64,000 bases of DNA from Corynebacterium timonense (GTDB lineage: Bacteria > Actinomycetota > Actinomycetes > Mycobacteriales > Mycobacteriaceae), in NCBI RefSeq assembly GCF_900105305.1, contig NZ_LT629765.1:2294001-2358000 (forward strand), read 5' to 3'. The notes beneath the pieces were generated by a model that was given only the letters and a program-made list of their open reading frames with translations, had not been told where the DNA came from and searched no databases. Positions 1,515-63,292 of the stretch are shown piece after piece; position 1 is the first letter of the stretch; the number at the start of each line of letters is the position of its first letter. The translations under genes and the position numbers were made by a program.

Positions 1515-2942
1515 ATGGACTTCGGAAAACAGATCGCGCTCGTCGCCGCCCTCGCCGCAGCCGCCGGAATCGGGGCGGGCGGCTTTGCGGCTACCACCGT
1601 TGACATCCCCTCCCCCGACCAGGTGGCCGTCACCACCGCCGGCGCCCCGCAGGTCGTCGTCGACGACCCGGACGACATCCTCACCCCCGACGAGGAGGCC
1701 CGCCTCCGCAGCGACGTCGAGCGTCTCGACGCCCCCGACACCGTCACCACCCTCTACTACCTGCTGCTGGCCACCACGCACGACAACGTCAACGATTCTG
1801 TCGAGGAGTTCTTCCGCGCCAACCACCCAGAGGCGATCGGTGAGGACTACTTTGCTGACGGGGTTCTCATCCTTGGCGCCGGCACCGATCAGCGAGCCGT
1901 TTTCGCCTTTGGGGGCGAGGACGTCGCCGACCAGCTCCGGCTCCGCCCGGGCGAGCGCCTCGAAGAGGTCAACGACGCGATGAAGCCCGGCATGCGCGAC
2001 AACAACATCCCCGCCGCGATGTTCGCGGGCGCCCGCACCGCCACCGACGCCGAGGCGATCGCCGAATCCGCGGTCAGCGACGCGGAAAGCGACCGCGGCA
2101 CGCGCGCCGCGTTGAGCGGCGTCGGTGCCGGCGCGGCCGTCGCCGGCGTCGGCGGTGGTGTGGTGGTGGCGAACCGGAGGCGTCGTAAAGCAATTGCCCA
2201 AGGCCGCGAGGACTACGACCTGGTGACCCGCGAGTACGCGCAGCTGGCGCAGCGCCTCGACGCGGTGGATATCCGCGCCAACTCCCTGACCTCCGAGTTC
2301 GCCAACGAGGAGCTGCGCAAAGACTGGGCCGAGGTGCAGCAGCGATTCCTGCGCATGCACGACAGCGTCTCCGGCGCCGGCGGCATCGGCGACATCAACA
2401 TGGACGACGACAAAGAGGTGCTGGCCAACCGCGACAAGCTTGCCGAGGCCGCCCGCACCGTCCGCCACACCACCACCGCCGAGAAGAACATCAACCGGCT
2501 GTTCGAGGTCGAAAACGGCAACGCCGCCGCCCGCCGCTCCGACCTGACCAACCTCCGCGAAGACGTCATGCGCGCCGCCACCGAAGTCAAAGACAAGGAA
2601 CTCAAGGCCCGCCTGCGCGACCTGGAAGAGCGCATCAACTGGCTCGACCAGAACCCCGAGGCGCCCGACTACATGGACCGCTTCGTCCGCGTCCTCGGCG
2701 ACTACCAGCTCGTCCTCGACCTCGTGCGCACCCGCCAGTTCAGCGACGTCAAGGAACACAACGAGCTCGAGCGCCCGCGCGTGTACCAGGAGAACTACTA
2801 CTACCCCAGCTACGTGCCCTACGTCGTGCTCGCCGACTGGCACTCCTCCAACGTCGCCGCGGAGCAGGCGCCCTCGTCGTCCGCGACGAACTCCTCGTTC
2901 AGCTCCGGGTTCTCGGGCTCGGGCGGGTCGAGCGGGTACTAG
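1515..2942 (+). CDS. membrane-anchored DUF5129-like protein with TPM-like domain
   Basis: 475-aa envelope protein of unknown function. A hydrophobic N-terminal segment (about residues 5-25) is followed by an extracytoplasmic region that looks like a TPM/DUF5129 domain (LTPDEEARLRSDVERL, then EEFFRANHPE and a DGVLIL strand), then a second Gly/Ala/Val-rich membrane segment (about 200-218) capped by NRRRRK. The rest is a charged, probably coiled-coil cytoplasmic region, ending in a Ser/Gly-rich tail. The start chosen is the ATG at 1515; a TAGAAT hexamer (1501-1506) sits 8 nt upstream. The assignment to DUF5129, a family common in corynebacteria, is from pattern memory. Confidence 0.75.
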   Translation: MDFGKQIALVAALAAAAGIGAGGFAATTVDIPSPDQVAVTTAGAPQVVVDDPDDILTPDEEARLRSDVERLDAPDTVTTLYYLLLATTHDNVNDSVEEFFRANHPEAIGEDYFADGVLILGAGTDQRAVFAFGGEDVADQLRLRPGERLEEVNDAMKPGMRDNNIPAAMFAGARTATDAEAIAESAVSDAESDRGTRAALSGVGAGAAVAGVGGGVVVANRRRRKAIAQGREDYDLVTREYAQLAQRLDAVDIRANSLTSEFANEELRKDWAEVQQRFLRMHDSVSGAGGIGDINMDDDKEVLANRDKLAEAARTVRHTTTAEKNINRLFEVENGNAAARRSDLTNLREDVMRAATEVKDKELKARLRDLEERINWLDQNPEAPDYMDRFVRVLGDYQLVLDLVRTRQFSDVKEHNELERPRVYQENYYYPSYVPYVVLADWHSSNVAAEQAPSSSATNSSFSSGFSGSGGSSGY

Positions 2943-2988
2943 GGCGCACCTGGTCTGGTCGACCTGGGGTTGTGTGCGCGGGTTGGTG

Positions 2989-3318
2989 TTGAGGTCGACT
3001 GTGGTCGACGTCAGCGTGTTGGGCTCGGTGGCGACCTGGGGTTTTGCTCGGCTGTTTTCCTTGAGGTCGACTGTGGTCGACGTCAGTGTGGTGGGCTCGG
3101 CGGCGACCTGGGGTTTTGCTCGGCCGTTTTCGTTGAGGTCGACTGTGGTCGACCTCAACGTGTTTGCCCCCGCGGCGACCTGGAGTTTTGTACCCGCATC
3201 GGCGTTGAGGTCGACCGTGGTCGACGTCAGCGTGCTGGCCCCCGCGGCGACCTGGAGTTTTGTACCCGCATCAACCTTGACGTCGACCGTGGTCGACGTC
3301 AACGCACACCACCCCAAC
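2989..3318 (+). repeat. tandem array of 72-bp hairpin repeats (array 1)
   Basis: Units begin at 2989, 3061, 3133, 3205 and 3277, an exact 72-bp period; the fifth is partial. Each unit holds a 9-bp inverted repeat around a 4-nt loop (GAGGTCGAC - TGTG/CGTG - GTCGACSTC) and then a conserved block CGACCTGGRGTTTTG. A degenerate half unit (GGTCGACCTGGGGTT) occurs near 2957. The array starts just after the stop of the upstream gene and fills the gap 2943-3418; no coding potential is convincing although the 72-bp period keeps several frames open. A related 84-bp array lies at 61672-62375 in the opposite sense. Confidence 0.95.
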
Positions 3319-3418: not shown

Positions 3419-4591
3419 ATGGCACTGCAGCAACCGGACGGCGGCCCGCTCGAGGGGATTGTCGTCGCGGACTTCTCCCGCGTCCTCGCTGGCCCGTACG
3501 CGACGATGATTCTGGCGGATCTGGGTGCGACCGTGATCAAGGTGGAAAGCCCCGCCGGTGACGATACGCGCCGGTGGGTCCCGCCGAAGCGCGGGGAGGT
3601 GGGCACGTACTACCTCTCGGTCAACCGCAACAAGAACTCGATCGCGCTGGATCTGAAGGACCCGGAGGACCTGCAGACGGCCTACGACATTATTGACCGT
3701 GCTGACGTGCTGATCGACAACTTCCGCGTCGGCAGCCTGGACAAGTTCGGGCTGGATTCGGAGTCGGTGGCGCGGCGCTGGCCGGACATCATCCACGCGA
3801 AGATCACCGGCTTCGGTGAGCGCGAGGGGGCGCAGCTGCCGGGCTACGACATGCTCATTCAGGCGGCGAGCGGTTTCATGTCGGTGACGGGGGATCCGGA
3901 GGGGCAGCCGCAGAAGGCGGGATACGCGGTGTTTGATGTGTTCACCGGTTTGCACACGGCGGTCGGGATCCTCTCGTCGCTGCTGCGCCGAGAGAAGAAG
4001 GGCGGCGGGGAGCTCATCAGCACGAATTTGCTGTCGGCGGCGCTGTCGTCGATGGTCAATATCTCCTCCGCGGCCGTCGCCTCGGAGGCGCCGCTGCCGC
4101 GCACGGGCAACGACCACACGTCGATCTTTCCGTACGGGCCGTTCCCCGCGAAGGACCGCGACGTGGTCATCTGTGTGGGCAACGACAAGCAGTTCGCTAC
4201 GCTTGTCGACGCCCTCGGGGCGCCCCACCTCGCGGAGGAGGAGCGCTTTGGGAGCGTCGAGAAGCGGAATGCGAACCGCGAGGACCTGAGGCCGCTGCTC
4301 AACGAGCGTCTGGCGGAGAGGACCGCGGACGAGTGGATCGAGGTGTTCCGCGCGCGGGGCCTGCCGGCCGCGCCGATCCTGTCGGTGCGTGAGGCGGTGG
4401 GCTTCGCGGAGGAGCTCGGGCTGGAGCCGGTCGTGCGCCTGCCTAACCGGGAGGGCACGGACGAGGTGCCGTACGTGGCGAACCCGCTGGAGTTGAGCTC
4501 CGGCGGGGTGCGCTACACCAAGTCGGCGCCGGAGCTGGACGAGGACCGCGCGGACATCCTGGAGTGGATCGCGGCGACGCCGCGACGCTGA
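3419..4591 (+). CDS. CaiB/BaiF (class III) CoA-transferase, SUGCT-like
   Basis: Moves CoA between a thioester donor such as succinyl-CoA and a free carboxylic acid. The 390-aa protein has the class III layout: N-terminal VADFSRVLAGPYATMILADLGATVIKVE, then YYLSVNRNKNSI, GYDMLIQAASG with the likely catalytic Asp at 144, and GNDKQFATL in the second half. Several blocks closely match my memory of succinate-hydroxymethylglutarate/glutarate CoA-transferase (SUGCT). The start chosen is the ATG at 3419, preceded by AAGGAG. Downstream genes encode a TAXI-TRAP importer and a glutaryl-CoA-dehydrogenase-like enzyme, so activation of glutarate or a similar dicarboxylate is a reasonable inference. Confidence 0.9.
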   Translation: MALQQPDGGPLEGIVVADFSRVLAGPYATMILADLGATVIKVESPAGDDTRRWVPPKRGEVGTYYLSVNRNKNSIALDLKDPEDLQTAYDIIDRADVLIDNFRVGSLDKFGLDSESVARRWPDIIHAKITGFGEREGAQLPGYDMLIQAASGFMSVTGDPEGQPQKAGYAVFDVFTGLHTAVGILSSLLRREKKGGGELISTNLLSAALSSMVNISSAAVASEAPLPRTGNDHTSIFPYGPFPAKDRDVVICVGNDKQFATLVDALGAPHLAEEERFGSVEKRNANREDLRPLLNERLAERTADEWIEVFRARGLPAAPILSVREAVGFAEELGLEPVVRLPNREGTDEVPYVANPLELSSGGVRYTKSAPELDEDRADILEWIAATPRR

Positions 4592-17979: not shown

Positions 17980-20190
17980 ATGCGTAAATTCAGCGGCGCA
18001 TTTGTCATTTCCCTTGCCGCGGCCGTGATCGCACAGAATGCTTCCGTCAGTTCTGCACAGGTTGCAGACTATTCGGCGGAGTTCTCTGCGCGGACAACCC
18101 CATCGTTCACAGGTTCCAACACGTCGTACGCCAACTCTAACGAGGCCTCAAAGCTTTCCACGGAGCTGCAAGAAGCGCCAGACGGTTTTGAGCCATCGTA
18201 CTCTGCACTTTTTGCTCGTCACGGGTCCCGCACCTCAAGCGATTCGGGATACTACGACAGGCTAATCAACGGCCTTGAAGCTGCTGGACGGGTGGACTTC
18301 TTTGGTGGAGCTCCCACTCGAACTGAGCTGGGCAAAGAGATCGAGGATCACCTCCGCCAGCTTCGGCAGCTCCACGATCAGATCGGCGGAGGAAACCTTA
18401 CGGGCCTTGGCCGTGAAGAATCCCGTGAACTCGCGGATAGTTTTGCTGAAAGGAATCGAGAGCTCCTTTCGGATAGTGAAGCCAAGCTGCGTCTAGAAGC
18501 CTCCACAAAAGGGCGCTCAATTGAGACGGGCGAGATTTTCGCACAACAGTTGATTGCCCATCGATTCGTCGTTGCACAGATTCCTGATAGGGCAACACAA
18601 AACAAAGAAGTCTTGCAAAACCAAGATGTCCCCGAGTCACCAGCTCAGCAGCGTCGGGAAGCTTACCTGCAGACGGATCCGGGTTACCAGGCTGTGAAGG
18701 GCATCCCGGAAAACTGGACAGCAGAAGTTCAGCCGTATGCGAATGCTGTATTTGAGCAGCTGCAAGGCTCGCGCAAGCCCTCTTTTTATGGGTACTGCGG
18801 CGGGCGCGCCAGAGATCTGTTTGAGGCGCGTGCATTCTCAGAATTGATGTCGGTTGAACGAGAAGCAGCTGGTGTCGGACCGTTCCCCGCTATTCCCGGG
18901 GCAGAGGACATGTACCGGTCCGTGCAGCAGTGCACCGCAATTGACGAATTCTATAAGCGCGGCGTCGGGTTGGAAGGGCAGGACCACTCGAACGCAAATG
19001 GCTTACCTCTTCTCAACCAGATTTTCGCGGGGATCGACGCCTCCGAAAACAACGAAGAGGTTGGGCAGCTTCTTTTCAGCCACAACGAGATTCTGACCCC
19101 GTTCAACGCCGTTCTTGCTATCCCGGAGATTGGTGCGAATCAGAAATTCCGCCCGGGCGAGCTGTTTAACTATGAGACCTATCCGGTTCTTAACCAGGCG
19201 CAGTCGGACCCGATGATGGGGAACATTGAATGGAATGTTTTCAAGCATGAGAACGGAACTCGGTTGGTGCGTATGCAACACAATGAACGGGCCGTACATT
19301 TTGGCCGTTCGTGCAAACCGATCAATGAAGAGTTTGACTACTTCTATCTTTACGAAGATTTGAAGGCCTGTTTGCCGGATGCGGGTCAAAGCATCCCATC
19401 CGAGGACGAGTTGTCTAAAGCGCGAAAACTCTTGCAGGAAGCGCTGAGCGAGGAAGAACTGATTCAAATTGTTTCGGTCATAGAGAACGAGGACGGTTCG
19501 ACCACGTTGAAGCTTTCGAACGGGCAGGTAGTCACGGTTCCGCCGAACAGGCAAATCGTGGGGACGGAAGAAACCGGGAGCGCGGTGATCATTAAGTTGA
19601 GTGATGGCTCGGTGATCGAGATCGCTAAGGGCCCCAAGGGTGAACCCGGTGAGCAGGGCCCCAAGGGTGAACCCGGTGAGCAGGGCCCCAAGGGCGAACC
19701 CGGTGAGCAGGGCCCCAAGGGCGAACCCGGTGAGCAGGGCCCCAAGGGCGAACCCGGTGAGCAGGGCCCCAAGGGCGAACCCGGTGAGCAGGGCCCCAAG
19801 GGCGAGCAAGGCGAACCGTCTAGGATCGTTGCCCAAGGGGTCGATGGTGAAGGCAATACAGTGCTGACTTTCTCGGATGGCACCGTTGTCACCATCCCAA
19901 GCGGGGCATTGTCGATCGAGCGACAGTATCTCGACTCCGAGGGGAATACGGTGGTCGAGTTTTCGAACGGCCAGAAGATCGTTATTGCTTCACCCGCCCC
20001 GAGCAAGAGCAGCTCGGGATCGTCGTGGTCGGATTCCTCCTCTTTGACCGCCGTGGGTTCTTCAGCGTTCGCTGCTGGTGGTGTGGTAGTTGCTTTTGTG
20101 CTGGCCATTGCGGCAGTTGTCGGGGGTTTGCTGGGCATTATTCCGCTGGCTCCTCCGATTCAGTCTTTAATTGATCTCGTACAGCGGTAG
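17980..20190 (+). CDS. secreted histidine acid phosphatase (phytase/MINPP-like) with collagen-like stalk
   Basis: 736-aa surface or secreted enzyme. Signal peptide ends near VSSAQ (residue 27). The histidine phosphatase branch-2 domain has the catalytic ARHGSRTSS motif (Arg80, His81, Arg84) and the late acid motif as SHNEILTPFN (His368-Asn-Glu370), as in multiple-inositol-polyphosphate phosphatases and phytases. Two short repeat modules ('DGSTTLKLSNGQVVTVP', 'SGSAVIIKLSDGSVIEIA') precede 21 Gly-X-Y triplets at residues 551-613, followed by two more DG[T/N] modules, a Ser-rich linker and a C-terminal membrane segment (about 700-722). Likely role: release of phosphate from inositol phosphates at the cell surface. 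No LPXTG is visible. Lower GC than neighbours suggests acquisition. Confidence 0.9.
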   Translation: MRKFSGAFVISLAAAVIAQNASVSSAQVADYSAEFSARTTPSFTGSNTSYANSNEASKLSTELQEAPDGFEPSYSALFARHGSRTSSDSGYYDRLINGLEAAGRVDFFGGAPTRTELGKEIEDHLRQLRQLHDQIGGGNLTGLGREESRELADSFAERNRELLSDSEAKLRLEASTKGRSIETGEIFAQQLIAHRFVVAQIPDRATQNKEVLQNQDVPESPAQQRREAYLQTDPGYQAVKGIPENWTAEVQPYANAVFEQLQGSRKPSFYGYCGGRARDLFEARAFSELMSVEREAAGVGPFPAIPGAEDMYRSVQQCTAIDEFYKRGVGLEGQDHSNANGLPLLNQIFAGIDASENNEEVGQLLFSHNEILTPFNAVLAIPEIGANQKFRPGELFNYETYPVLNQAQSDPMMGNIEWNVFKHENGTRLVRMQHNERAVHFGRSCKPINEEFDYFYLYEDLKACLPDAGQSIPSEDELSKARKLLQEALSEEELIQIVSVIENEDGSTTLKLSNGQVVTVPPNRQIVGTEETGSAVIIKLSDGSVIEIAKGPKGEPGEQGPKGEPGEQGPKGEPGEQGPKGEPGEQGPKGEPGEQGPKGEPGEQGPKGEQGEPSRIVAQGVDGEGNTVLTFSDGTVVTIPSGALSIERQYLDSEGNTVVEFSNGQKIVIASPAPSKSSSGSSWSDSSSLTAVGSSAFAAGGVVVAFVLAIAAVVGGLLGIIPLAPPIQSLIDLVQR
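19630..19818 (+). repeat. 27-bp in-frame repeats encoding collagen-like GPKGEPGEQ units
   Basis: Seven tandem 27-bp units, the first six coding GPKGEPGEQ and the last GPKGEQGEP, form 21 uninterrupted Gly-X-Y triplets. Units are nearly identical in DNA (differences such as GGT/GGC at the same codon), so copy number could change by slippage or recombination without losing frame. Confidence 0.93.
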
Positions 20191-29779: not shown

Positions 29780-30091
29780 ATGCCCTCGAAGTACTCGCCT
29801 GAGTTGAGGCAGCGCGCCATCGAATTGGTGCTGCATGCGCAAGCTGACCCTGACACGTCTCGTGGTGCGATATCCCGCATCGCTGTCGAGCTCGGAATGA
29901 GCAAGGAAACTCTGCGCGGATGGGTCCGCGCTCATAAACAATCCGGCGCGGCAACCCCGGCTGAATCGGTGGATCTTGCAGCGGAAAACCGCAGGCTGCG
30001 GGCTGAACTGATTGAAGCGAAGCGCGCTAACGAGATTTTGAAAAGAGCATCAGCTTTTTTCGCGGCGGAGTGCGAGCGCCCACACACGTAG
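29780..30091 (+). CDS. IS3-family transposase OrfA
   Basis: 103-aa DNA-binding part of the transposase: helix-turn-helix (KYSPELRQRAIELVLHAQ ... IAVELGMSKETLRGWVRAHK) and a leucine-zipper-like helix (AAENRRLRAELIEAKRANEILKRASAFF). Near its end a T6 run (about 30055-30060) could allow -1 slippage into orfB, yielding the OrfAB transposase. ATG at 29780 with AAAAGGAG upstream. Confidence 0.92.
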   Translation: MPSKYSPELRQRAIELVLHAQADPDTSRGAISRIAVELGMSKETLRGWVRAHKQSGAATPAESVDLAAENRRLRAELIEAKRANEILKRASAFFAAECERPHT

Positions 30092-30996
30092 TCGTCCGGT
30101 TCATCGACGACAACCGGGAGGAGTTCGGGGTCGAGCCGATTATTCGCGCCCTTTCAGCAACCAACGCGAAAATCGCCCTGAGCACCTACTACGCCTACAA
30201 ATCCCGGCCTGAATCATCTCGATCTATCCGCGACCGACAACTACGCAAAGCTTTGCGTGCCATCTACGACGACAACTACTCCTGCTATGGAGCGCGCAAA
30301 CTATGGGCCGAGGTCAATCGCCGAGGCGACTTCGGTCACCTCGCCCGGTGCACCGTCGAGCGCCTCATGGCACTCGAAGGCATCCGTGGTATCCGGCGCC
30401 GGAAGAAAAAGCCCTCGACCCGCAGCGCTGCCCCCGATAACTGCCCAGTCGACTTGGTCGAGCGCGACTTTTGTGTCGATGCGCCGAACCGGCTGTGGGT
30501 CGCGGATATCACATACATCCCCACGCGTGTCGGGTGGGTGTATGCCTCGTTCGTTCTCGACGCGTGTACACGGGAGATTGTTGGCTGGCAGATCACCAAC
30601 CACATGCGCCCATCACTGGCTAAAGACGCGCTCGAGATGGCCTTGTCAGCGCGCGTGCGCGCCGGTGAAGATGTCTCCGGTCTGATCCATCACTCAGACA
30701 GGGGCGTGCAGTACCGGTCGGTCGTCTATGGAGAGACCTTGGCTCAGTCGCAGGTTATCGCTTCGGTTGGCTCGCGGGGAGACTCCTACGACAACGCGAT
30801 GGCAGAAGCGCTGAACTCAGTGTTCAAAGCTGAACTCATCGACCGTAGGACCTGGCCGGGGCTGCGAGATGTTCTCGTCGCGACGTCGACATGGGTCGGC
30901 TGGTACAACAACCGTCGTGTGCACTCGGCGCTAGCGTACCGCTCACCCTGCGAGGCCCATCAGGAATACACCGCCGCGAACACCCAAGCGGCCTAA
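30070..30996 (+). CDS. IS3-family transposase OrfB (DDE integrase core)
   Basis: 308-aa catalytic part. The DDE triad is visible as WVADITYIP, HHSDRGVQYRS and NAMAEALNSVFKAELI. The helical HTH_21-type region precedes it (CTVERLMALEGIRGIRRR). It overlaps orfA by 22 bp in the -1 frame and is most likely translated as an OrfAB fusion after slippage at the T6 run rather than from its own GTG. Complete and apparently intact, so this element may still be mobile. Confidence 0.92.
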   Translation: MRAPTHVVVRFIDDNREEFGVEPIIRALSATNAKIALSTYYAYKSRPESSRSIRDRQLRKALRAIYDDNYSCYGARKLWAEVNRRGDFGHLARCTVERLMALEGIRGIRRRKKKPSTRSAAPDNCPVDLVERDFCVDAPNRLWVADITYIPTRVGWVYASFVLDACTREIVGWQITNHMRPSLAKDALEMALSARVRAGEDVSGLIHHSDRGVQYRSVVYGETLAQSQVIASVGSRGDSYDNAMAEALNSVFKAELIDRRTWPGLRDVLVATSTWVGWYNNRRVHSALAYRSPCEAHQEYTAANTQAA

Positions 30997-60457: not shown

Positions 60458-61645
60458 ATGACTTCTCTGACGGGTGGGCTCCTTGTCGCCCTCGCTGTGC
60501 TCACGGCTACGGGCCCGCTCGGAATCGACATGTACCTGCCGGGCCTACCCGCCCTCGCCGAGGACCTGAACACCACGCCCGCAATGGCGCAACTGACCAT
60601 CACCGGCTTCATGGTCGGCATGGCCGCCGGCAACCTCCTCTTCGGAGCCATCTCCGACTCCACCGGCCGCAAACCGCCGATCCTCATCGGCTCCGCCGCC
60701 TTTTTCGTCGCGTCCGTGGGGTGCGCGCTGGCTCCCACGATCGAGGCGCTCATCGCCGGGCGCGTCGCCCAGGGCCTCGCCGGCGGCGCGGCCATGGTCG
60801 TCGCGCGCGCCATCATCCCGGACGTCGCCCACGGCAGGCAGGCCGCGCGCGCGTTTTCCGGCCTCATGGCCATTACCGGCTTCGCGCCTGCGATCGCCCC
60901 CGTCCTCGGCAGCCTCCTGCTTCCCGCCTTCGGCTGGCGCGGAGTCTTCTGGACGCTCGCCGCCGTCAACGCCGCCCAGTTCCTCCTCGCCGCCCTCGTC
61001 ATCCCCGAGACGCTGCCCGCTTCTCGACGCTCCAACAGCGCCCTCCGCGGCCTCTTCCCCCGCATCGGCCGCTGCCTGCAGCGCCCCACCTTCATCGGCT
61101 ACATGCTCGCCTCCAGCCTCGGCTTCGGCTCGTTGTTTTCCTACATCGCCGCCTCCCCCCTCGTCCTGCAAAACCAACTCGGCGCCTCGCCCTCCGTCTA
61201 CGCCCTCCTCTTCGGATCGATGGCCCTGCTCCTGCCCGTCTCCAACGCGCTGAACATGCGGGCGGTCACCAACGTCCACCCGGGCGTCCTCCTGCGCGCC
61301 GCGCTCACGATCAACCTCGCCACCGGCGCCGTGCTCTTCGCCCTGTCGCACTTCACCCCCACGCTGCCCATCGTGGTACCCGTCCTGGCCGTCCTCTCGC
61401 TGACCTCCGGGTTCGTCATGGCCAACGCCACAGCCCTCGGCGTGGAAACCGTCCGCGACGTCGGCGCCGGTGCCGGCTCCGGAACGATGGGCTTCGTGCA
61501 GTTCCTCGTCTCCGCCACCGTCGCGCCACTCGTCGCCACAGGAGCAAACCACCTCCAGACCGTGTCTATCTCCGTCATGGCGTGCGCCGGGGTCGCGCTT
61601 GTCGCGCTCCTGGTGCTGGCGCCGCGCGTGCGGGAGAGGGGCTGA
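60458..61645 (+). CDS. Bcr/CflA-type MFS multidrug exporter
   Basis: 395-aa, 12-TM proton antiporter. Bcr/CflA traits: GPLGIDMYLPGLPALAEDL in TM1, motif A GAISDSTGRKPPILIG, motif B-like GRVAQGLAGGAAMVVARAIIPDV and motif C-like GFAPAIAPVLGSLLLPAFGWRGVFW. Expected to export small drugs or amino-acid derivatives. Start ATG at 60458; TACACA ends 7 nt upstream. The repeat array 2 begins 27 bp after its stop. Confidence 0.92.
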   Translation: MTSLTGGLLVALAVLTATGPLGIDMYLPGLPALAEDLNTTPAMAQLTITGFMVGMAAGNLLFGAISDSTGRKPPILIGSAAFFVASVGCALAPTIEALIAGRVAQGLAGGAAMVVARAIIPDVAHGRQAARAFSGLMAITGFAPAIAPVLGSLLLPAFGWRGVFWTLAAVNAAQFLLAALVIPETLPASRRSNSALRGLFPRIGRCLQRPTFIGYMLASSLGFGSLFSYIAASPLVLQNQLGASPSVYALLFGSMALLLPVSNALNMRAVTNVHPGVLLRAALTINLATGAVLFALSHFTPTLPIVVPVLAVLSLTSGFVMANATALGVETVRDVGAGAGSGTMGFVQFLVSATVAPLVATGANHLQTVSISVMACAGVALVALLVLAPRVRERG

Positions 61646-61671: not shown

Positions 61672-62375
61672 TTGAGGTCGACTAGGCGGGGTGTGCTGGT
61701 CGACGTCAGCGAAATCTCGCGCGTAAAACCCCAGGTGGCGTGAGCGTGGAATGTGTTGAGGTCGACTAGGCGGGGTGTGCTGGTCGACCTCAGCGAAAAC
61801 CTGGGCGTAAAATCCCAGGTCGCGAGAGGTTGGAATGCGTTGAGGTCGACTAGGCGGGGTGTGCTGGTCGACCTCAACGAAATCTTGCGCGTAAAACCCC
61901 AGGTGGCGAAACCCCGAAATACCTTGAGGTCGACTAGGCCGGGCGCCCTGGTCGACCTCAGCGAAATCCCGCGCGTAAAACCCCAGGTGGCGGAACCCCG
62001 AAATACCTTGAGGTCGACTAGCCTGTCGCCCTGGTCGACCTCAGCGAGATCCCGCGTGCAAAACCCCAGGTGGCGAAACCCCGAAATACCTTGAGGTCGA
62101 CTAGCCCCAGCGCCCTGGTCGACCTCAACGAAATCCCGCGCGTAAAACCCCAGGTGGCGAAACCCCGGAACACCTTGAGGTCGACTAGCCCCAGCGCCCT
62201 GGTCGACCTCAGCGAAATCCCGCGCGCAAAACCCCAGGTGGCGAAACCCCGCAACACCTTGAGGTCGACTAGCGCCAAAAACCTGGTCGACCTCAGCGAA
62301 AACCCACACGCAAAACCCCAGGTCGCCTAACCCCGCAACACCTTGAGGTCGACGAGGCCGGGAGACCTCAACGGC
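61672..62375 (-). repeat. tandem array of 84-bp hairpin repeats (array 2)
   Basis: Units start at 61672, 61756, 61840, 61924, 62008, 62091, 62175, 62259 and 62343: a strict 84-bp period except one 83-bp unit (62008), with the ninth partial. Each has GAGGTCGAC and GTCGACCTC (9-bp inverted repeat around a variable loop of about 16 nt) and AAAACCCCAGGTGGCG. The latter is the complement of the CGACCTGGGGTTTT block of array 1, so the arrays are the same family in opposite orientation. The array fills the gap 61646-62385 between the convergent MFS gene and rbsK. No ribosome site supports translation. Confidence 0.95.
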
Positions 62376-62385
62376 CCGCAATACC

Positions 62386-63282
62386 CTATTCCGGCAGCGC
62401 GTCCCCCGCGTGTGGGTAGGAGGTCTGAGCGCCACGCCGGGTGGCGGCGAACGCGCCGACCCGCCCGGCGAAGCGGGCGGCGGGGACGAGTTCGTCGCCG
62501 GCGGCGAGACGGTGCACGAGCGCGCCGACGAAGGCGTCGCCGGCGCCGGTGGAGTCGACGGATTCGACGATGGCCGGCGGGATGGCCACCACCTGGTTGC
62601 CCTCAGCGACGACGGCGCCGCGCGCCCCGCGGGTGACCACGACTGACGCGAAGCCCAGCTCGATGAGCCGGGCAGCCATGCGCTCTTCCGATTCGGCGGG
62701 GGCCGCGCCGAACATCGTCAGCACGAGGCCCGCCTCGTGCTCGTTGACCACCAGCGGGTCGGCGCGCAGCAGGTCGTCGCGGTCCACGGGGACCACCGGG
62801 GCGAGGTTGACCACGACGCGACCGGTGGCGGCGCGCACCGCGGCGGAAAAGCCGGAGGCGGGGATCTCGCCCTGCAGCAGCACGATGTCGGCGGCGGCGA
62901 TGGGGTCGGCGGAGGCGGTGACGCGGGCGTCGTCAAGCGAGGCGTTCGCGCCGGGCACGACGATGATGGTGTTCTCCCCGTCGTCGGACACGGTGATCAC
63001 GGCCAGGCCGGTCGCGCCGGGTTCGGCGGTGACGGCGCTGAGGTCCACGCCGGCCGCGCGTAGGTGCTCGAGCGCGGTGTCCGCGTAGGCGTCGGAGCCG
63101 ACGGCGCCGACCATGCGCACGTCGGAGCCGAGGCGGGCGGCCGCGACTGCTTGGTTGGCGCCTTTGCCTCCGGCTGAGACTCCCCCGTCGGCGCCGATGA
63201 GGGTTTCACCGGGCAGCGGGTGGCGCTCGACGAGCACGAACAGGTCTGCGTTGATGGAGCCGACGACGGCGATGGCGCTCAT
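62386..63282 (-). CDS. rbsK: ribokinase
   Basis: 298-aa PfkB-family kinase phosphorylating D-ribose to ribose-5-phosphate. N-terminal VVGSINADLFVLVERHPLPGET and SAGGKGANQAVAAARLG, and the anion-hole/catalytic motif DSTGAGDAFVGALV. The start chosen is the ATG at 63280-63282; an upstream extension has no ribosome site. No ribose transporter is adjacent. Its 3' end abuts repeat array 2. Confidence 0.93.
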   Translation of the reverse strand: MSAIAVVGSINADLFVLVERHPLPGETLIGADGGVSAGGKGANQAVAAARLGSDVRMVGAVGSDAYADTALEHLRAAGVDLSAVTAEPGATGLAVITVSDDGENTIIVVPGANASLDDARVTASADPIAAADIVLLQGEIPASGFSAAVRAATGRVVVNLAPVVPVDRDDLLRADPLVVNEHEAGLVLTMFGAAPAESEERMAARLIELGFASVVVTRGARGAVVAEGNQVVAIPPAIVESVDSTGAGDAFVGALVHRLAAGDELVPAARFAGRVGAFAATRRGAQTSYPHAGDALPE

Positions 63283-63292
63283 GGGGTCCACG

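Follow-up and report, generated by a model that had tools for sequence, protein, structure and literature searches.

Array positions and neighbouring genes in the window

The stretch of DNA analysed here (the window) is 64 kb long and corresponds to bases 2294001-2358000 of the host chromosome, a single contig of 2,633,085 bp. Two tandem arrays of a palindromic repeat lie in this window (Table 1). Array 1 is flanked by the genes of a DUF5129 protein and a CoA-transferase family III protein, and array 2 by the convergent genes of an MFS transporter and a PfkB-family sugar kinase. Tandem Repeats Finder gave a period of 84 and 8.2 copies for array 2 (61672-62362; 88% matches, score 855), and a period of 72 and 4.8 copies for array 1 (2960-3301; 81% matches, score 367), whose palindromes are spaced exactly 72 bp apart throughout. 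A preliminary description of the window had listed eight full units and a partial one at 84-bp spacing in array 2, with one step of 83 bp; this was reproduced, and the single shorter step arises because the fifth palindrome (62009) is 35 instead of 36 nt long. The same modules had been reported for array 1 at 72 bp and in the opposite sense, and the core module indeed lies on the other strand there. The reported inverted repeat is also real, but its arms measure about 10-13 bp rather than 9 bp.

Table 1 Arrays, array modules and adjoining genes, in window coordinates
Feature	Position	Strand	Remarks
DUF5129 protein gene	1515..2942	+	stop just ahead of array 1; start codon predicted
Array 1 (A14)	2960..3301	-	72-bp class, five 24-nt palindromes, core on - strand
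Array 1 palindrome 1	2990..3013	-	
Array 1 palindromes 2-5	3062-3085, 3134-3157, 3206-3229, 3278-3301	-	
Array 1 core	3031..3045	-	reads GCGACCTGGGGTTTT on +; read from sequence
Array 1 further core copies	2959-2973 (variant), 3103-3117	-	read from sequence
Array 1 core copies with A for third G	3175-3189, 3247-3261	-	read from sequence
CoA-transferase family III gene	3419..4591	+	downstream of array 1
MFS transporter gene	60497..61645	+	stop 61643-61645 points into array 2; start codon predicted
Array 2 (A16)	61673..62362	+	84-bp class, 8 full palindromes and 1 partial, core on + strand
Array 2 palindrome 1	61673..61708	+	36 nt
Array 2 palindromes 2-4	61757-61792, 61841-61876, 61925-61960	+	
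Array 2 palindrome 5	62009-62043	+	35 nt
Array 2 palindromes 6-8	62092-62127, 62176-62211, 62260-62295	+	
Array 2 palindrome 9	from 62344	+	broken/partial
Array 2 unit 1 core	61725..61739	+	AAAACCCCAGGTGGC; read from sequence using the unit cut
Array 2 further cores	61809-61823, 61893-61907, 61977-61991, 62060-62074, 62144-62158, 62228-62242, 62312-62326	+	same basis as unit 1 core
PfkB-family sugar kinase gene	62386..63288	-	convergent; stop 62386-62388 beside array 2; start codon predicted

A chromosome-wide family with constant linker length

The two loci, first described as one modular family, are in fact 2 of 19 arrays of the chromosome. By BLAST and a fuzzy scan of the fetched stretches, we located 19 arrays with 132 palindromes, a count that excludes three isolated places with degraded units as well as broken units at array ends; a two-unit BLAST query gave 99 matches in the host genome. 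The host genome contains 62 perfect matches to the palindrome pattern, all of them inside arrays, and none to the reversed control pattern; a chance origin of the arrays is excluded. Assembly artefacts, an objection raised in the preliminary description, are unlikely because an independent genome, that of the close relative G155, has arrays at the same gene ends.

Each unit consists of a palindrome of 24 nt (56 of the 132), 35 nt (17) or 36 nt (59) and a linker, with a 15-nt core, AAAACCCCAGGTCGC, in mid-linker (linker positions 17-31). Among the 113 links between successive palindromes, 102 measure 48 nt, eight 47 nt, one 46 nt and two, both in A17, 34 nt. The unit lengths of 72 and 84 bp follow from this constant 48-nt linker, common to arrays 1 and 2, and a palindrome of either 24 or 36 nt (24+48, 36+48), so that the difference between the classes (84-72 = 36-24) sits wholly in the central spacer of the palindrome. 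One 24-nt palindrome is joined to 36-nt ones in A10, and the two classes therefore mix, and G155 has an additional class of 104 bp (56+48; lengths counted by hand). Comparison between arrays, restricted to the 102 links that measure 48 nt, showed a divergence of 48% and 50% in the linker flanks and of 12% in the core; in the arms, compared across all 132 units, it was 5%. The linker is free in sequence and constrained in length. The two short links of A17 (host chromosome 2563946-2564118) are without 14 nt that include the core, indicating that core-less units can persist.

The TCGA centres of the palindrome are 10 (54 units), 22 (53) or 21 bp (17) apart in 124 of the 132 units. At six loci of G155 the corresponding distances are 10 (five cases), 21 (seven) and 42 bp (eight), together with one case each of 43, 44 and 45 bp. 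These spacings amount to about one, two and four helical turns. At L097, L099 and L101 of G155, the 36-nt palindrome spacer of the 104-bp units was also seen to hold a diverged second core-like stretch (TAAACCCCGACTTCGCG). Higher-order repeats are present in A19, where the linker difference falls from 15.7 at lag 1 to 7.7 at lag 2 and 6.1 at lag 4, and in A5 (10.4 vs 5.2).

Arrays at gene 3' ends and their history in two relatives

The neighbours of the arrays were predicted with a codon-model gene finder, and the array limits were set by hand. The preliminary placement of the arrays in gaps at gene ends is supported across the chromosome, with a gene 3' end pointing into 18 of the 19. Eight array gaps are convergent, ten tandem and one divergent; among 180 further gaps, from the window and these stretches, the numbers are 27, 126 and 27, so that convergent gaps are enriched (8/19 vs 27/180, p 0.004). 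The array is closer to the stop than to the start codon in all ten tandem cases, and the orientation of the core relative to the tandem genes shows no bias (6 against 4). Of the flanking proteins, 30/38 match Pfam families, nearly all of them ordinary, and eight match none; a Mutator-family transposase gene adjoins A11 and A19.

The neighbouring gene of 18 arrays was located in G155, with A11 excluded for its flank, a multicopy transposase. Arrays occupy six of these 18 orthologous sites (A2, A3, A10, A13, A17 and A19; the A13 array comprises two palindromes with a single core) and are absent at the other 12. The G155 stretches of A9, A12 and A18 contain lone core-like matches with 2-3 mismatches and without palindrome. 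Since global alignment misplaced the gene ends at empty sites, gaps were measured with local anchors. At A5, A9 and A16 the gene gaps are -16 to 14 nt in G155 and in a second relative, G020, vs 787, 521 and 740 nt in the host, the anchors on the other side of A16 being weak (0.37, 0.29); the A14 and A2 gaps in G020 were left unused, with a poor other-side anchor (0.13-0.14). No core is present at the A5, A9 and A16 sites of the two relatives, and the stop codons at A4 and A7 overlap in G155 (CTAG). Compared with the empty G155 sites, the arrays begin at or near stop codons, and no clean target-site duplication was found. Because array 2 of the window is absent in two relatives whose flanking genes abut or overlap, it was probably gained in this genome.

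Occupied sites differ between the genomes as well. At A3 and A10 the units are of about 104 bp in G155 and of 84 bp in the host, except for one 72-bp unit in A10. The core of the A2 array in G155 (L129 400-630) runs in the opposite sense to that of the host. Likewise, the G020 array corresponding to A19 (L089), which like A19 follows an acetate kinase gene, combines the same core, in the opposite sense, with other palindromes. The opposite core senses at A2 and A19 may reflect repeated gain at the same gene end. Gain and patchy distribution favour spread. The preliminary suggestion that the repeat spreads agrees with the gain of arrays at gene ends and with the differences in unit length and presence between relatives.

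A fixed core between changing arms

The preliminary description had also proposed searching Corynebacterium genomes for the two modules. The core pattern, with C or G allowed at one position, was found in 61 of 242 genomes of the genus, host included. The perfect palindrome pattern of the host was absent from a sample of 150 other genus genomes that did not include G155, a close relative with the same palindrome. The remaining 181 genomes are without the exact core. The reversed control of the core pattern gave single matches in five genomes among the matches listed, and a covariance model of the unit matched 23/242 genomes, host included, at E<=0.001. The core keeps its place while the inverted arms change between most genomes: arms of the GTGACAT type are found in G020 and G021, AAATGGAGCTAGCTCCATTT arms in G209 and G103, and AAAAGACGATATCGCCTTTT arms in G163, next to further arm types in other genomes. 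Some genomes (G020 with G021, G209 with G103) thus have arms in common.

To describe the surroundings of the core, we used 95 distinct core contexts from 56 loci in 22 of the 60 other core-bearing genomes, hand-picked among the matches listed, with G155 excluded from the count. A strong inverted repeat (score 11 or more) was found in 41% of these contexts vs 2.1% of 475 random positions, and at a lower threshold arms were found in 87 of the 95. About the core, 68 of these 87 arm pairs are symmetric (0-2 nt), 16 are offset by 9-12 nt, which is one helical turn, and three are placed otherwise, vs 172, 204 and 1899 at random positions of the same loci (n=2275). The binomial probabilities, 1e-61 for the in-phase class and 4e-14 for the offset class, treat the contexts as independent, although many of the 95 come from tandem arrays and are not; the safer figure is the count by genome, with the symmetric class in 16/21, the one-turn class in nine and another in three.

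Two genomes illustrate the arms further. The half-sites of G148 recur to either side of the core, in steps that are mostly 20-22 bp and in a few cases 42-43, and they differ from locus to locus. Dispersed pairs of the arm TGTGACAATGTTGTGTT are found in G015; the two arms lie exactly 53 nt apart in 9/10 single copies, with the core at the same offset in 9/9. The flanks of these copies differ by 38-42%, the core by 10%, the right arm by 7% and the left arm by 1%; as the copies were found via the arm, its low divergence is partly a selection effect, which leaves core position and spacing unaffected. That such diverged single copies keep both arms and core favours a present function.

Accessory genes were observed between two arm-core-arm units, as if the cargo were exchangeable, at L119 1344-2707 in G163 and at L103 868-2388 and L114 1314-2769 in G148. 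They include a gene for a Fic protein in G163 and one for an AbiEi/DUF559-like protein in G148, and an unassigned 364-aa ORF is also among the genes at these loci. The G148 ORF prompted us to consider a DUF559/AbiEi nuclease as the partner of the repeat. This candidate was rejected: the core (<=2 mismatches) was present in one of 30 DUF559 loci fetched, which are part of 58 matches listed. A further DUF559 match (G085:C35) has the core about 1 kb away. The presence of DUF559 genes is by itself uninformative, because 23/24 core-bearing genomes carry them, and the Fic gene between two units is a single case.

Among 298 genomes of the order, five of them from the host genus, the exact tandem core was found in one, the host itself. 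In a wider contig collection the tandem core appeared in six stretches, three of them from Corynebacterium, in keeping with the genus assumed in the preliminary description; those of Amycolatopsis and Sulfopaludibacter were judged unrelated by eye. The host palindrome followed by CCAGGT matched no stretch of this collection, from which the host's own records were possibly left out. Outside the genus, an Austwickia stretch (L080 2838-3156) contains a tandem array in which the same core is accompanied by an inverted repeat of CCGCCCACGGGCG. Array 2 had no match in plasmid or phage collections, the tandem-core pattern had none in viral contigs, and the palindrome matched the latter once, in isolation; a plasmid or phage vector was rejected on these grounds. 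The one viral match is a perfect TGAGGTCGAC...GTCGACCTCA pair in a 115-kb contig (L156 710-749).

Comparison with known repeat families

A literature search, in sources accessible in part, yielded no description of the array family, and a string search gave none on Corynebacterium repeats among the matches listed. C. diphtheriae is among the genomes with stem-loop families according to the accessible part of PMC2267715, and the main text of PMC12306157, in its accessible part, makes no mention of Corynebacterium. These results agree with the preliminary statement that no described family has this signature, at the level of the partial sources searched, and suggest that the array family is an undescribed element.

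CRISPR loci consist of palindromic repeats alternating with unique spacers. The present arrays resemble them in a palindromic repeat of 24-36 nt that alternates with about 48 nt, but their linkers have a common conserved core instead of unique spacers, and the loci are many and dispersed. MITEs are short and dispersed with inverted ends, usually without a constant centre between varying arms. The single copies of G015 are MITE-like in being short, dispersed and bounded by inverted ends; unlike in MITEs, it is the centre of the Corynebacterium units that stays constant, with inverted arms that differ from genome to genome, and neither a parent element nor a target duplication was found. The MIRU of Mycobacterium tuberculosis, as described in the accessible part of PMC2734929, are likewise dispersed tandem units of 40-100 bp, variable in number, in an actinobacterium, and are set apart, by description rather than by sequence, by the inverted arms around a core and the genome-specific arms found here.

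The REP-derived elements of E. coli come closer. IHF interacts in BIME-1 with the stretch that separates two opposed REPs, and tandem BIME-2 binds gyrase (PMC2817692), the cleavage sites of which are overrepresented in BIME-2 (PMC6379681); a GTAG (or GTGG) 5' of the palindrome is a REP feature (PMC2817692, Table 1), all as given in the accessible parts of these papers. Like BIME-1/BIME-2 and RIB, as far as the accessible descriptions go, the Corynebacterium elements have inverted palindromes around a constant site (the IHF site in theirs), are single or tandem and are extragenic. RIBs reportedly lie at the 3' ends of transcription units, going by the title of Boccard and Prentki (1993). The extragenic 3'-end position of REP/BIME was found for 18/19 arrays, and the BIME-1/RIB architecture, with inverted arms flanking a constant site, for 87/95 contexts, the core being a predicted protein site. 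Unlike in BIME and RIB, unit lengths in the Corynebacterium arrays are strict and the arms are placed in steps of one helical turn, and their 15-nt core is of another sequence and constant across genus members, with palindrome letters that change. They also differ in having neither the GTAG start nor RAYT: the palindrome is mostly preceded by CGT, CGC or CCT, with GTAG/GTGG absent, and PF01797 (RAYT, Y1 transposase) was found in none of 14 core-bearing genomes, host included, and, by the same search, in one of 14 genomes without the exact core. With no Y1 transposase and no GTAG, a REP/RAYT system was rejected.

Interpretation of the array geometry

Constant spacing with free flanks, phased arms and a fixed core suggest that the arrays bear the mark of a protein-DNA complex and not of an RNA hairpin; of the functions offered in the preliminary description, the protein-binding array is the one favoured by constant spacing and helical phasing. 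We infer protein binding from this geometry and consider it probable, on balance, that the arrays are a protein-bound architectural element that also spreads. Each unit would be a composite site in double-stranded DNA, its two inverted arms facing the same side of the helix and the 15-nt core lying midway. The arms would be bound by a dimeric protein whose specificity differs between genomes, and the core would be bound or bent by a factor common to the genus; we infer these separate binders, as well as the architectural role and the mode of spread. The basic form would be the single arm-core-arm unit, amplified here into tandem arrays, probably by unequal recombination (compare the higher-order repeats), and new arrays would be gained at the 3' ends of genes, where harm is small. 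Such an element would work most like BIME-1/BIME-2 and RIB, as a chromosome-architecture site that also spreads. Speaking against this reading are the good folding of the palindromes as RNA, the patchy distribution, the unbiased core orientation relative to tandem genes and the reversed core at A2 in G155.

A more specific version, which we put forward tentatively as a possibility, is a new class of bacterial DNA element, a two-key chromosome or mobilisation site, its core read by a conserved Corynebacterium factor and its helically phased arms by a fast-evolving, genome-specific partner. Centromeric satellite DNA turns over while the CENP-B box stays fixed; if a two-key site exists here, then, by analogy, its specificity would turn over like the satellite and its centre stay fixed like the box.

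The strongest rival is a purely selfish, satellite-like repeat, non-autonomous and moved in trans by a putative recombinase or transposase, without benefit to the host. Its amplification would proceed by slippage and unequal crossing-over, and arms and core would be kept because the mobilising enzyme needs them. We regard this as rather unlikely, even though patchiness (181/242 genomes without the exact core, 12/18 G155 sites empty) accords with a selfish element no less well than with a host function. The occupation of only six of 18 orthologous sites in a close relative, the lack of array 2 in two relatives, the higher-order repeats in A19 and A5, the change from about 104 bp in G155 to 84 bp here at A3 and A10, and the accessory genes (Fic, AbiEi/DUF559-like) between units in G163 and G148 all speak for it. 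Against it, no Y1 transposase was found in the host or 13 other core-bearing genomes, array 2 is unmatched in plasmid and phage collections, viral contigs contain one palindrome match and no tandem core, the flanking proteins belong to ordinary Pfam families (30/38) or match none (eight), and no target-site duplication was established. Moreover, the G015 single copies keep arms and core despite flank divergence of 38-42%, which is unexpected for dead copies.

The second function offered in the preliminary description, a structured RNA, would mean 3'-UTR hairpins that stabilise or terminate mRNAs, and we judge it improbable. Folding of the palindromes as RNA is indeed strong (better than shuffles in six folds, with z between -1.7 and -4.9; -3.2 and -4.9 for the core strand of the two window units), most arrays come after stop codons, and the arms stay complementary between species despite changed letters. 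However, the one strongly variable arm position changes mostly without compensation: palindrome position 4 is mispaired in 41/56 of the 24-nt palindromes and in 5/17 and 10/59 of the other classes, which weakens the hairpin reading, and covariation of the pairs is not above that of shuffles (37 units). Spacers of 4, 15-16 and 36 nt and a one-turn arm offset have no obvious RNA reason, the core orientation is mixed, and no Rfam family was above its gathering threshold at the arrays. As for an intrinsic terminator, array 1 contains four terminator-like sites on the + strand (0.6 expected for the whole region), all of them weak matches inside the array, but array 2 contains none (1.3 expected), and A12 lies between a stop codon and a separate terminator-like hairpin that is common to G155; an intrinsic terminator is thus not supported in array 2. 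Operator arrays of one ordinary transcription factor, which palindromic sites with phased half-sites might call to mind, are very improbable, given that all 62 perfect palindromes are inside arrays, at gene 3' ends rather than promoters, and that one of the 19 arrays lies between divergent genes.

Returning to a protein-bound element that also spreads, the array geometry predicts in-phase protein contacts on arms and core. REP/BIME with RAYT are the best-understood intergenic palindromic repeats, and the Corynebacterium arrays would be a comparable case without that machinery. Should a fast-changing protein read the arms, the arrays would be a bacterial example of satellite-like, concerted evolution around an unchanging core. 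In addition, the arrays may serve as typing markers, because presence and unit number differ between relatives.

Other features of the window and genome

About six and a half near-perfect 27-bp repeats lie at 19628-19805 of the window and encode a collagen-like GPKGEPGEQ tract in a 736-aa ORF (17980-20190, + strand). At 30052-30180, Rfam recorded an ALIL pseudoknot (RF01497, 57.8 bits), a frameshift signal known from IS3-family elements. Another intergenic inverted-repeat family (CTAAAAACAGAACYCTAAAAATC with GATATC) was observed at L057 3436-3730 and L047 6440, with five matches in the fetched host-genome stretches and the window.
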